Positions 49,260 through 52,374 of a DNA stretch of 64,000 nucleotides are shown piece by piece. The stretch spans positions 1 to 64,000 of the forward strand of contig JAGWRO010000076.1 of the NCBI GenBank assembly GCA_028876495.1. Reading direction: 5' to 3'. The notes below the pieces were generated by a model that had not been told where the DNA came from, searched no databases, and saw nothing but the letters and a program-made list of their open reading frames with translations. The translations under genes and the position numbers were made by a program. How positions within the stretch are numbered: the stretch's first letter is position 1; each line of letters starts with the position of its first letter. This stretch comes from Bacteroidota bacterium. Lineage in GTDB: Bacteria > Bacteroidota > Bacteroidia > Chitinophagales > Chitinophagaceae.

Positions 49260-50357
49260 ATGAGATTTAATCATTTTTCAAAATTCAACCCAAATGAAAA
49301 TAGCAAGTCAACATTTGAAAACCTGTTGAATATTTTCATGCAACTGCTTACTTATACAAGTGGCGACGTAGGTGAAGCCCTTAGCTGGCTTACCGAACTG
49401 GATAAAGAATACAATCTTACCAATGATGAATACGGGATGGGAGATTTTATTGAAGATCTGAAAGACAAAGGGTATATAGACGAGAATAAACAGAACGGAG
49501 AAATAAAAATTACTCCAAAAACCGAGCAGGGAATCAGGAAGCGCAGCCTTGAGGAAATATTTGGTAAGCTTAAAAAAACAAGATCAGGAAATCATAATAC
49601 CTTCAAACCCGGTGGTGGCGACGAGATCAATCCGGAAACCAGGCCTTTTCAGTTCGGCGATACTTTAGAGCAAATTGATTTTACGGAATCGATCCGTAAT
49701 GCGCAAATCAATCATGGAACGGAAAGTTTTATGATGCATGAAGATGATTTGGAAATTCGTGAAACTGATTTTAAAGCGCAAACTTCCACCGTGTTGATGA
49801 TCGACATTTCGCACAGCATGATCTTATATGGCGAAGACAGGATAACACCTGCCAAGAAAGTAGCGATGGCTTTGAGCGAATTAATTACTACCAAATATCC
49901 GAAGGACACCATTGATATCGTGGTTTTTGGAAATGATGCATGGACTGTGGAAATCAAAGATCTTCCTTATTTGCAGGTTGGGCCTTATCACACCAATACG
50001 GTTGCGGGGCTCGAACTGGCGATGGATATTTTGCGAAGAAGAAAAAATCCCAACAAACAAATTTTTATGATCACTGACGGAAAGCCGACTTGTTTGAAAG
50101 TGGGCAAGCGTTATTATAAAAATAGTTTTGGAGTTGATAGAAGAATTTTAAATCGTTGCCTGAATCTTGCTGCTCAATGTAAAAAACTTAAAATTCCTAT
50201 CACCACATTTATGATTGCCAGCGATCCGTATCTTCAAAAATTTGTGACTGAATTTACAGAAACCAATAATGGCAAGGCTTTCTTTGCGTCTCTCGACAGG
50301 CTGGGCGCTTTTATCTTTAAAGACTTTGAAAGCGGAAAAAGAAAAACGGTTTATTGA
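49260..50357 (+). CDS. VWA-domain protein partnered with an AAA+ ATPase
   Basis: 365 residues, no signal peptide or membrane segment. An N-terminal helical part (1-150) is followed by a VWA domain (about 170-350): MIDAS in MIDISHSMILYGEDRITPAKK (DxSxS), then IVVFGNDAWTVEI and MITDGKPTC. Cytoplasmic VWA proteins of this kind (CoxE/ChlD/YehP-like) work with a MoxR/ChlI-type AAA+ ATPase, here encoded next but one, to remodel or metallate a target. The target is not evident. The partner gene is separated by an inserted cassette. Confidence 0.85.
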   Translation: MRFNHFSKFNPNENSKSTFENLLNIFMQLLTYTSGDVGEALSWLTELDKEYNLTNDEYGMGDFIEDLKDKGYIDENKQNGEIKITPKTEQGIRKRSLEEIFGKLKKTRSGNHNTFKPGGGDEINPETRPFQFGDTLEQIDFTESIRNAQINHGTESFMMHEDDLEIRETDFKAQTSTVLMIDISHSMILYGEDRITPAKKVAMALSELITTKYPKDTIDIVVFGNDAWTVEIKDLPYLQVGPYHTNTVAGLELAMDILRRRKNPNKQIFMITDGKPTCLKVGKRYYKNSFGVDRRILNRCLNLAAQCKKLKIPITTFMIASDPYLQKFVTEFTETNNGKAFFASLDRLGAFIFKDFESGKRKTVY

Positions 50358-50361
50358 AAAA

Positions 50362-50381
50362 TGTCTGAACCATGATTTGGG
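50362..50381. repeat. Left inverted repeat of the GxxExxY cassette
   Basis: TGTCTGAACCATGATTTGGG, starting 4 nt after the VWA stop. It is the exact reverse complement of 50855-50874. Beyond the 20 bp, both arms continue with similar GATT-rich sequence. Confidence 0.9.
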
Positions 50382-50440
50382 GAGATTAAAAAGATTAGAA
50401 GAACAGATTTTTAGACGATAATTGATACATTTACTTAATT

Positions 50441-50848
50441 GTGGGACAGACAGAATATAAATTTAAAGAGATAACAGAAAAAATAATTGGTGCAGCAATG
50501 AGAGTGCATTCTGCCCCGGGAAACGGATTCCAGGAAGTAATTTATCAAAGAGCACTTGAAATTGAAATGGATGATTCCGATTTGAAGTTTGCCCGGGAAT
50601 TAAGCATGCCGATTTATTATAAAAACAAACAGATAGGAGAAAGAAGAGTAGATTTTTTTGTGGAATCCAAAATAATGGTAGAACTCAAGGCTATTATCCA
50701 ATTAGAAAATGTTCATCTTGCGCAGGCCAAAAATTATTTAGAGGCATACAATGTGCAGGTAGGATTACTGATAAATTTTGGATCCATTAGTCTTCAATTT
50801 AAAAGACTTGAAAACTCAAAATTCTGCCCTAATCCTAACAATCAATAA
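50441..50848 (+). CDS. GxxExxY protein (PD-(D/E)XK nuclease-like)
   Basis: 135 residues. The family signature is GNGFQEVIYQRAL (G-x2-E-x2-Y) and the nuclease-like core is VDFFVES then MVELKA, giving the D...ExK pattern of the PD-(D/E)XK superfamily; the C-terminal VGLLINFGS then LQFKR is also typical. Start is GTG at 50441. Function is not established; the fold suggests a nuclease or nucleic-acid binder. Flanked by perfect inverted repeats and inserted in an unrelated operon, it behaves as a cassette gene rather than a part of the VWA-AAA+ system. Confidence 0.88.
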   Translation: MGQTEYKFKEITEKIIGAAMRVHSAPGNGFQEVIYQRALEIEMDDSDLKFARELSMPIYYKNKQIGERRVDFFVESKIMVELKAIIQLENVHLAQAKNYLEAYNVQVGLLINFGSISLQFKRLENSKFCPNPNNQ

Positions 50849-50854
50849 AATCCA

Positions 50855-50874
50855 CCCAAATCATGGTTCAGACA
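50855..50874. repeat. Right inverted repeat, contains the AAA+ start codon
   Basis: CCCAAATCATGGTTCAGACA. The ATG at 50863-50865 inside it is the annotated start of the following AAA+ gene, so the first four codons (Met-Val-Gln-Thr) come from the repeat. Confidence 0.9.
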
Positions 50875-52374
50875 GACATAAAAACCCTGGGACAACTAAA
50901 AGAAATTAACTACAAACCCAGATCAGTAAAAGAAGAATTACGCGAAAATCTTATTAAGAAGATCAGTAAAAAAGATGTGACTTTTCGTGGAATTATTGGT
51001 TATGAAGATTCAGTGATTCCTGATACAGAAAGAGCTTTGTTGTCACGTCATAATATCCTTTTCCTGGGTTTGCGTGGACAAGCGAAGACCCGTATGGCGC
51101 GCCAGATGACGGAATTACTGGATGAATATATCCCGGTAGTAGAAGGCAGCGAAGTAAACGATGATCCGTTTAAGCCGCTCAGCAAATATGCCCGCGATCT
51201 TGTGAAGGAAAAAGGAGATGACACACCTATCACATGGTTACATAGAAGCGAGCGATATGGGGAAAAATTAGCTACACCTGATGTAAGTGTTGCCGATCTT
51301 ATTGGTGATATTGACCCGATAAAAGCTGCCAATTTGAAGTTGAGTTATGCTGATGAAAGAGTGATCCATTATGGCATCATTCCAAGGAGCAACCGCGGCA
51401 TTTTTGTGATCAACGAATTACCCGATTTGCAGGCGCGCATCCAGGTTTCATTGTTCAATATTTTGGAAGAAGGCGACTTGCAGATACGCGGTTTTAAATT
51501 AAGATTGCCGCTGGATATTATGTTTGTCTTCACTGCAAATCCTGAAGATTATACCAACCGCGGGGCGATTGTAACACCACTTAAAGATCGTATCGAAAGC
51601 CAGATACTGACTCATTATCCTACCAATATTGAAAATTCTTTGTTTATTACTGAACAGGAAGCTTCCATTCATAGCGAACAGGTAAAAAAAGTACAGGTAA
51701 GTGATCTGGTAAAACGCCTGTTAGAGCAGGTTTCATTTGAAGCACGGGGAAGTGAATTTGTCGACAAAAAAAGTGGCGTTTCTGCAAGGCTTACCATCTC
51801 TGCATTTGAAAATGCCGTGAGTGCCGCAGAAAGGCGCGCCATCATGAATAAAGAAAAAGAAACGCAGGTTTGGATCAGCGATCTGACGGGCATTATTCCT
51901 TCCATCACCGGTAAAATAGAATTGGTATATGAAGGAGAACAGGAAGGTCCTTACCAGGTGGCGTATAATTTATTGGAGAAGGCCATACGGACACAATTTG
52001 TAAAATATTTCCCCAATCCTGAATCTTTAAAAAAAAGAAAAACCCGCGAATCTGTTCCTGAGGAAAATCCTTACAGGGCCATTACACATTGGTTTGATTC
52101 CGGCAACCAGCTGAATGTTTCTTTTGATTTAAAGGATGAAGATAAAATACAGATGCTTTACAAAGTAGATGGCTTATTTGGCCTCGTGAAAAAACATTTT
52201 CCTGCCGCCAATAATAAAGAAAATGCGTTGCTGATGGAATTTGTATTGCACGGTTTGTCGGCATTTTCTTTGATCAGCAAAAAAGTGGTGGAAGGTAAAA
52301 TCGAATTTAAAGATCTGATGGGAAGTATGATCAATTTAAGTTCCCAATCTTTTACAGATGATGAATTGGAGTAG
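50863..52374 (+). CDS. MoxR/ChlI-like AAA+ ATPase
   Basis: 503 residues, cytoplasmic. The Walker A is GLRGQAKT (near residue 69), the Walker B region GIFVINELPDL has Asn where Asp is usual, and sensor 1 is FTANPEDYTNRG; the C-terminal lid is helical. This matches Mg-chelatase subunit I-like ATPases paired with VWA proteins, here the gene at 49260. Family similarity begins at about residue 6 (IKTLGQLKE). The start codon and first residues fall in the right inverted repeat of the cassette, so the original start was probably replaced by the insertion. Confidence 0.88.
   Translation: MVQTDIKTLGQLKEINYKPRSVKEELRENLIKKISKKDVTFRGIIGYEDSVIPDTERALLSRHNILFLGLRGQAKTRMARQMTELLDEYIPVVEGSEVNDDPFKPLSKYARDLVKEKGDDTPITWLHRSERYGEKLATPDVSVADLIGDIDPIKAANLKLSYADERVIHYGIIPRSNRGIFVINELPDLQARIQVSLFNILEEGDLQIRGFKLRLPLDIMFVFTANPEDYTNRGAIVTPLKDRIESQILTHYPTNIENSLFITEQEASIHSEQVKKVQVSDLVKRLLEQVSFEARGSEFVDKKSGVSARLTISAFENAVSAAERRAIMNKEKETQVWISDLTGIIPSITGKIELVYEGEQEGPYQVAYNLLEKAIRTQFVKYFPNPESLKKRKTRESVPEENPYRAITHWFDSGNQLNVSFDLKDEDKIQMLYKVDGLFGLVKKHFPAANNKENALLMEFVLHGLSAFSLISKKVVEGKIEFKDLMGSMINLSSQSFTDDELE

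Follow-up and report, generated by a model that had tools for sequence, protein, structure and literature searches.

REPIN hairpins are thought to be served by RAYT (TnpA-REP), a Y1/HuH transposase, and REP palindromes carry a GTAG or CGTC tag at their foot. Here we describe a short repeat-bounded element that resembles this system but encloses a gene for a GxxExxY protein. GxxExxY proteins are annotated in very many genomes, and to our knowledge they have no settled function. The element lies in a stretch of 64,000 nucleotides (hereafter the window) from a Bacteroidota bacterium of the Chitinophagaceae (assembly GCA_028876495.1, contig JAGWRO010000076.1, positions 1 to 64,000, forward strand), between a gene with a VWA domain and an AAA+ ATPase gene. 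Judged from the sequences, the insertion is real, and this repeat-bounded GxxExxY unit belongs to a large family whose members have captured start positions of host genes more than once. We consider it somewhat probable that this cassette is a REPIN/RAYT-like chromosomal mobile repeat whose partner is a Cas4-like PD-(D/E)XK GxxExxY protein instead of a Y1 transposase.

The 20-bp string TGTCTGAACCATGATTTGGG has two exact matches in the window, at 50362-50381 on the forward strand and at 50855-50874 on the reverse strand, and none of 100 dinucleotide shuffles of the window contains a match, even with 3 mismatches allowed. The exact arms of the original prediction are thus borne out. With 2 mismatches the arms extend to 26 bp (50362-50387, forward; 50849-50874, reverse). 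The left arm reads inward as TGTCTGAACC-AT-GATT and is followed by an additional GATT unit at 50388-50398 (forward), one of the short-period sub-repeats that recur every 9 nt in the flanks of this protein clade. As had been claimed, the arms bound a GxxExxY gene alone: the single open reading frame between them (50441-50848, forward, GTG start, 135 aa) matches PF13366 and TIGR04256, and the right arm begins immediately 3' of its stop codon. The right arm does contain the ATG and the four first codons of the AAA+ gene, since 50863-50874 (forward) reads ATG GTT CAG ACA (MVQT), so that the start and codons 2-4 are arm-derived. Folding of the window unit is stronger than that of all 100 shuffled versions (z -4.7). 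Elsewhere in the same genome the arms are partial. The 20-mer at 3 mismatches finds two further places (C50 and C80), and its backward-read control likewise finds two; a 15-mer core with at most 1 mismatch finds six places (the window pair, C50, C80, C10 and C74), and its backward pattern none.

The neighboring reading frames are the VWA-domain gene upstream (49260-50357, forward; PF13519, E 3.3e-9) and the AAA+ ATPase gene downstream (50863-52374, forward; PF07728, E 5.4e-7). The cassette had been said to split this pair; it does sit between the two, but no gene is split and both are intact. Among 30 AAA+ loci from this genome and its relatives, 25 have the VWA partner on the same piece. Twenty-two of these 25 readable junctions are empty, being about 24-185 bp long with neither arm nor gene, two (the window and G003) hold arms and gene, and one (G009) holds a lone left arm. 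The operon occurs without the cassette in most junctions, therefore the plain operon exists uninserted, which agrees with the predicted insertion. Apart from the lone arm in G009, arms were not seen as ordinary parts of uninserted operons at these junctions.

The history of this site was followed with a scan of species genomes using proteins of the window's clade, which gave at least 590 candidate stretches, of which 575 were confirmed and the best 80 kept. The five best loci (L215-L219) come from two Chitinophagaceae metagenome-assembled genomes (MAGs), a Bacteroidota MAG, a Bacteroidetes MAG and Niabella hibiscisoli, and all five are at the VWA-AAA+ site. A tree of 107 proteins groups the seven copies at this site with that of G009 in a single clade (98/83), which points to one ancestral insertion followed by many losses. 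The G009 gene is the closest relative of the window gene, 87% identical in protein sequence; it lies upstream of the VWA gene (L108:2978-4806) between two near-identical hairpins of about 120 bp, and the lone left arm that stays at the VWA-AAA+ junction marks the old site of the cassette. The existence of a single clade of site copies across Chitinophagaceae, together with the intact GxxExxY genes in the window, L215, L216 and L217, could also be explained if arms and gene were an old, fixed and immobile regulatory part of the operon. We give this very little credence, in view of the 22 empty junctions, the relocated gene and leftover arm in G009, the G003 gene (L144), which is broken across two frames, and the presence of arms at many unrelated sites.

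Arms of the form TGTCTGAACY-NN-GATT flank the window's GxxExxY clade in Bacteroidota and in some other phyla. Flank counts were made on 78 of the best 80 loci (L236 and L251 were left out). With at most 1 mismatch, GTCTGAAC occurs inward in the left flank of 68 loci and inverted in the right flank of 63, and 59 loci have both, compared with 4 of 78 for both arms in the wrong sense and 1 of 78 for both with letters reversed. Both arms are found in MAGs named Desulfobulbus, Calditrichia/Calditrichaeota, Ignavibacterium, Fibrimonadaceae, Dojkabacteria and Desulfurellaceae, and MAGs named Pseudanabaena, Balneolaceae and Poribacteria do not show the full pair; faulty binning may lie behind such names. 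A score of 14 or more is reached by the best inverted match between flanks in 49 of the 78 loci and in 44 of 312 swapped pairs, a contrast muted by the common arm end that swapped flanks share. The GATT units of the clade's flanks have a period of 9 nt (z 21), the peak lying there and not at the 10.5-nt helical period expected beforehand.

Furthermore, the two arms of a locus resemble each other beyond the shared end. Over 25 nt, left-right identity is 0.62 within loci and 0.43 between loci (0 of 2000 permutations), as measured in the 65 usable loci among 102; the remaining 37 do not have the full pair, and the set takes in all but 2 of the 26 nearby loci. In one protein subclade, GAATT replaces GATT in the units of both flanks in 6 of 6 loci (L220, L225, L231, L241, L249 and L267) versus 0 of 59 others, a pattern noticed post hoc, with a seventh member, L291, having no pair. 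The overall correlation of arm and protein similarity is weak by Mantel test (0.11, with 75 of 2000 permutations as high; 0.13 and 59 of 2000 without the VWA-site loci).

A search of this and related genomes for arms with and without the gene, proposed with the original prediction, found gene-free copies to be common in some relatives. An exact 16-nt core is present in 8 of 39 genomes (34 copies in G009, 11 in G015, 7 in G007, 6 in G023, 3 each in G000 and G010, 2 each in G003 and G016), and the reversed core has no match in the same 39 genomes. Reading 40 stretches revealed many inverted pairs about 100 bp apart with no gene between them. When gene-free pairs were defined by ends 60-230 bp apart, 82 distinct pairs of 68-208 bp were obtained, with the outer consensus ATTGTCTGAAC. 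Target-site duplications showed no clear excess in these 82 units (the largest departures being 3-mers, 11 versus 6.9 expected, and 4-mers, 5 versus 2.4), their exact ends being uncertain. For 40 gene-free units that were folded, the median z relative to mononucleotide shuffles is -8.1. Some copies have more elaborate forms: four direct arm copies with a 47-48 bp period are followed by one inverted copy in G009 (L116:2160-2409), and gene-free elements in G023 (L142, L075) have an extra inner hairpin of the GTCGTTC/GAACGAC type.

Of 159 genomes from the order, 51 encode the clade protein (E 1e-25), 39 have the arm pattern and 31 have both (Fisher's exact test, P = 1e-12, a statistic that like the next one ignores the relatedness of genomes). 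Thirty-one of the 51 genomes with the protein have arms versus 8 of the 108 without it, and when only arms away from the gene are counted, the numbers are 19 (by hand) or 20 (by a script rule) of 51 versus 8 of 108 (P = 8e-6 or 3e-6). The reversed pattern gives one match in each of 3 genomes, compared with 142 arm sites. Genomes such as G007, in which arms occur without the clade protein, suit either loss of the protein after spread or a passenger role for it.

Under such a passenger role, the arms would owe their mobility to a different enzyme, whether a Y1 transposase of the RAYT type or an unrecognized one, and GxxExxY would be a passenger or self-maintenance gene caught between them. The presence of Y1_Tnp genes in 35 of 39 relatives and the gene-free copies that far outnumber gene-bearing ones in G009 could be explained in this way, as could the genomes that have arms but lack a GxxExxY gene of this clade. 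Against it, convergent arms accompany 15 of 26 nearby GxxExxY genes that are at least 50% identical to that of the window (wrong sense, 2 of 26), and convergent arms of the window type were found at 0 of 48 other GxxExxY, 0 of 29 four-helix-bundle (PF05635) and 0 of 29 Y1 loci nearby, in a scan of near flanks at fixed positions that leaves out 1 of 30 PF05635 and 1 of 30 Y1 loci and was misplaced for L303 alone. Under a loose rule applied to whole loci, 3 of 30 Y1 loci have facing 8-mers with 1 mismatch, none with the rest of the arm. In the window's own genome, Y1 matches are limited to two weak ones, one of which contains stops, and arm type tracks the GxxExxY clade. We therefore regard movement by another enzyme as unlikely. 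Genomes of the G007 type fit both protein loss and a passenger gene, and for this reason our preference for GxxExxY as the partner is kept modest.

Inverted flanks are not restricted to the window's clade. Four more GxxExxY genes in the same genome each have some inverted match within 700 bp, differing in sequence and strength (that at C54 is weak). Of 74 GxxExxY genes drawn from all clades in this genome and its relatives, 43 have inverted flanks that score 14 or higher, compared with 14 of 296 pairs of swapped flanks and 1 of 148 shuffles; this count leaves out L148 and L179 (short flanks) and takes one match once. Direct matches of at least 14 occur at 37 of the 74 genes, largely because complete hairpins can stand on both sides of a gene (L108). 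The arms of other clades (L005, L008, L009, L052, L058, L184 and others) are of CACAGAG, CACAAAGA, CGCAAAG, ACGAATT and TTTGCG types, unlike those of the window. Genes of the PF05635 family (L185-L214, with 1 of 30 loci left out) have inverted arms at a score of 14 in 17 of 29 loci versus 3 of 87 swapped pairs, and direct ones in 0 of 29. Their arms have a 7-nt period and are of GGGTTTC, GTGAATG and TTAAGTA types. Control open reading frames have inverted arms in 1 of 56 cases.

Since PF05635 comprises the proteins of 23S rRNA intervening sequences (IVSs), the shared inverted-arm architecture raises the possibility that the arms act in RNA. The unit would then be IVS-like within the VWA-AAA+ transcript, its stem processed (e.g., by RNase III) and the RNA cut by GxxExxY or by the host, with spread via RNA copying or rare recombination. 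The strong folding of the window unit and of the gene-free units would be in keeping with this, as it is expected of any inverted repeat. We find this account quite improbable, because gene-free copies stand at many sites that are not in rRNA and the closest solved folds of GxxExxY are DNA enzymes, though tRNA-splicing endonucleases are also in the Foldseek list.

The protein itself is well assigned. It matches TIGR04256 (E 5.1e-38, 130 bits against a cut-off of 35) and PF13366 (E 3e-37, 128 bits against a cut-off of 22), and its fold is PD-(D/E)XK, Cas4/RecB-like, with the nuclease residues conserved. G29, E32, Y35, D71, E81, K83 and Q95 are invariant among 32 aligned members, Y99 is present in at least 90%, and E32, D71, E81, K83 and Q95 are all present in the window protein. 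GxxExxY is thus a predicted PD-(D/E)XK nuclease with putative metal-dependent cleavage of DNA or RNA. A sequence search for solved relatives found none that is convincing (best E 0.56). No match was found in 50,697 phage records; 8 of 72,556 plasmid records match (best identity 59%), and there are two relatives in viral contigs. A defense system was considered and set aside, PADLOC giving no match for GxxExxY, VWA or AAA+.

The arms appear to have contributed coding sequence to host genes. In the window lineage, the native start position of the AAA+ gene seems to have been replaced by the arm ATG, which is the predicted start. At the same site in other genomes, different states are found. In L215 the arm ATG is mutated and a native-type start follows directly after the arm (CAGACA|ATGAACATAAAG), L217 has the arm start and the native start both in frame (MVQTMDIKNIKTLG), and in the window, G003 and L216 only the arm ATG is present. 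The likely order is insertion abutting the start, a stage with both starts usable, and loss of the native start. No arm start was called in L218, where the right-hand part has undergone rearrangement, and the start in L219 (Niabella) is a weak case, since the right end there is divergent and both the VWA and the AAA+ frame are fragmented. On the other side of the cassette, the VWA stop is TAG in L215, L216, L217 and G003, its G supplied by the GTCTGAAC of the arm, and TAG is the VWA stop in 3 of the 22 empty junctions.

Arm starts recur: among 132 distinct outward arm ATGs (2 of 134 with less than 150 codons of sequence were left out), a frame of 150 codons or more begins at 16, versus 6 and 5 in the other two frames, and at 100 codons or more the numbers are 19 versus 8 and 11; these counts include related genomes and the four AAA+ cases, and are not all independent. 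Arm starts were found in 3 of 20 orthologs of an SDR gene (ATG in G007 and G015, GTG in G010), in 4 of 24 orthologs of a hydroxyacyl-CoA-dehydrogenase-like gene, and also at HisG-like and TrpF-like genes, names that we presume from sequence. Judged by the same criterion, the remaining orthologs of the SDR and hydroxyacyl-CoA-dehydrogenase-like genes begin without an arm. The predicted rewriting of downstream start sites thus extends, as far as sequence can tell, from the AAA+ gene to two other genes. In L230 and L278 an upstream outward-type arm ATG opens the GxxExxY frame itself (MVQT...), and the repeat may there serve as the start of its own gene. Some predicted Bacteroidota proteins beginning with MVQT carry repeat-derived N-termini, which matters for annotation, and the locus documents a route from mobile repeat to coding start of a host gene.

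The original prediction proposed a non-autonomous or nuclease-mobilized element. The arms do behave as element ends; that GxxExxY moves them is what we infer. The ends are the inverted arms ATTGTCTGAACY-NN-GATT with further GATT units about 9 nt apart, and GxxExxY would most likely recognize those of its own clade as duplex or extruded hairpin. Nicking or cutting at the ends or hairpins would allow the gene-bearing unit to be copied to new intergenic sites, and short gene-free hairpins with the same arms would be copied in trans, a role like that proposed for RAYT with REPINs. In a Chitinophagaceae ancestor, an ancestral copy would have inserted between the VWA gene and its AAA+ neighbor, just ahead of the latter's start. 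Because the outward end of this arm variety is ATGGTTCAGACA, its ATG could be fused in frame, and would have replaced the native start in the lineage.

More broadly, it is nearly as likely as not, and we put it forward tentatively, that GxxExxY is the nuclease that mobilizes a separate class of bacterial repeat elements, different from RAYT systems, insertion sequences and IVSs. Each clade would have its own short-period arms, with gene-free hairpin progeny in at least one clade; the S23/IVP family would have a parallel system of 7-nt period, and the TGTCTGAACC branch, with its outward ATG-GTT-CAG-ACA, would repeatedly rewrite host starts. GxxExxY would gain concrete candidate substrates, namely its own flanking arms, readable from the genome. 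Our searches of the open-access PubMed Central literature (preprints outside scope) found no description of this repeat-bounded GxxExxY family, and neither the 16-nt arm string nor four-helix-bundle genes with such repeats gave a match.

Several described systems share parts of this organization. The TAACTGA repeats of Beggiatoaceae are likewise abundant intergenic repeats of short period, but are heptamers in direct arrays; their author brings up mobile elements as a means of spread, with a repeat-binding protein in the role of the mobile element, and the terms GxxExxY, S23 and "four helix" do not occur in that paper (PMC4679880). Miniature inverted-repeat transposable elements and insertion sequences are similar in the terminal inverted repeats common to gene-bearing and gene-free units, whereas the unit here contains neither a DDE nor any other known transposase and shows no clear duplication of its target site. 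The 23S rRNA IVS with its S23/IVP protein is alike in holding a small open reading frame within inverted ends, as do the PF05635 genes here. The window protein, however, is unrelated (PF13366, not a four-helix bundle), its unit lies between protein genes rather than in rRNA, and the PF05635 arms differ in sequence and in period (7 versus 9 nt). The likeness to REPIN/RAYT covers short inverted-pair repeats dispersed in intergenic DNA, tandem arrays, copies flanking one resident gene, the lack of clear target duplication and a chromosomal location. The differences are that the partner is PF13366 PD-(D/E)XK and not Y1/HuH, that the ends carry TGTCTGAAC and GATT units of 9-nt period, and that convergent arms were not found in the near flanks of Y1 genes (0 of 29). 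The unit fails the defining feature of REPIN/RAYT, a Y1 partner, and is therefore not counted as a member; if GxxExxY does mobilize its arms, it would represent a second protein-linked hairpin-repeat system beside REPIN/RAYT.
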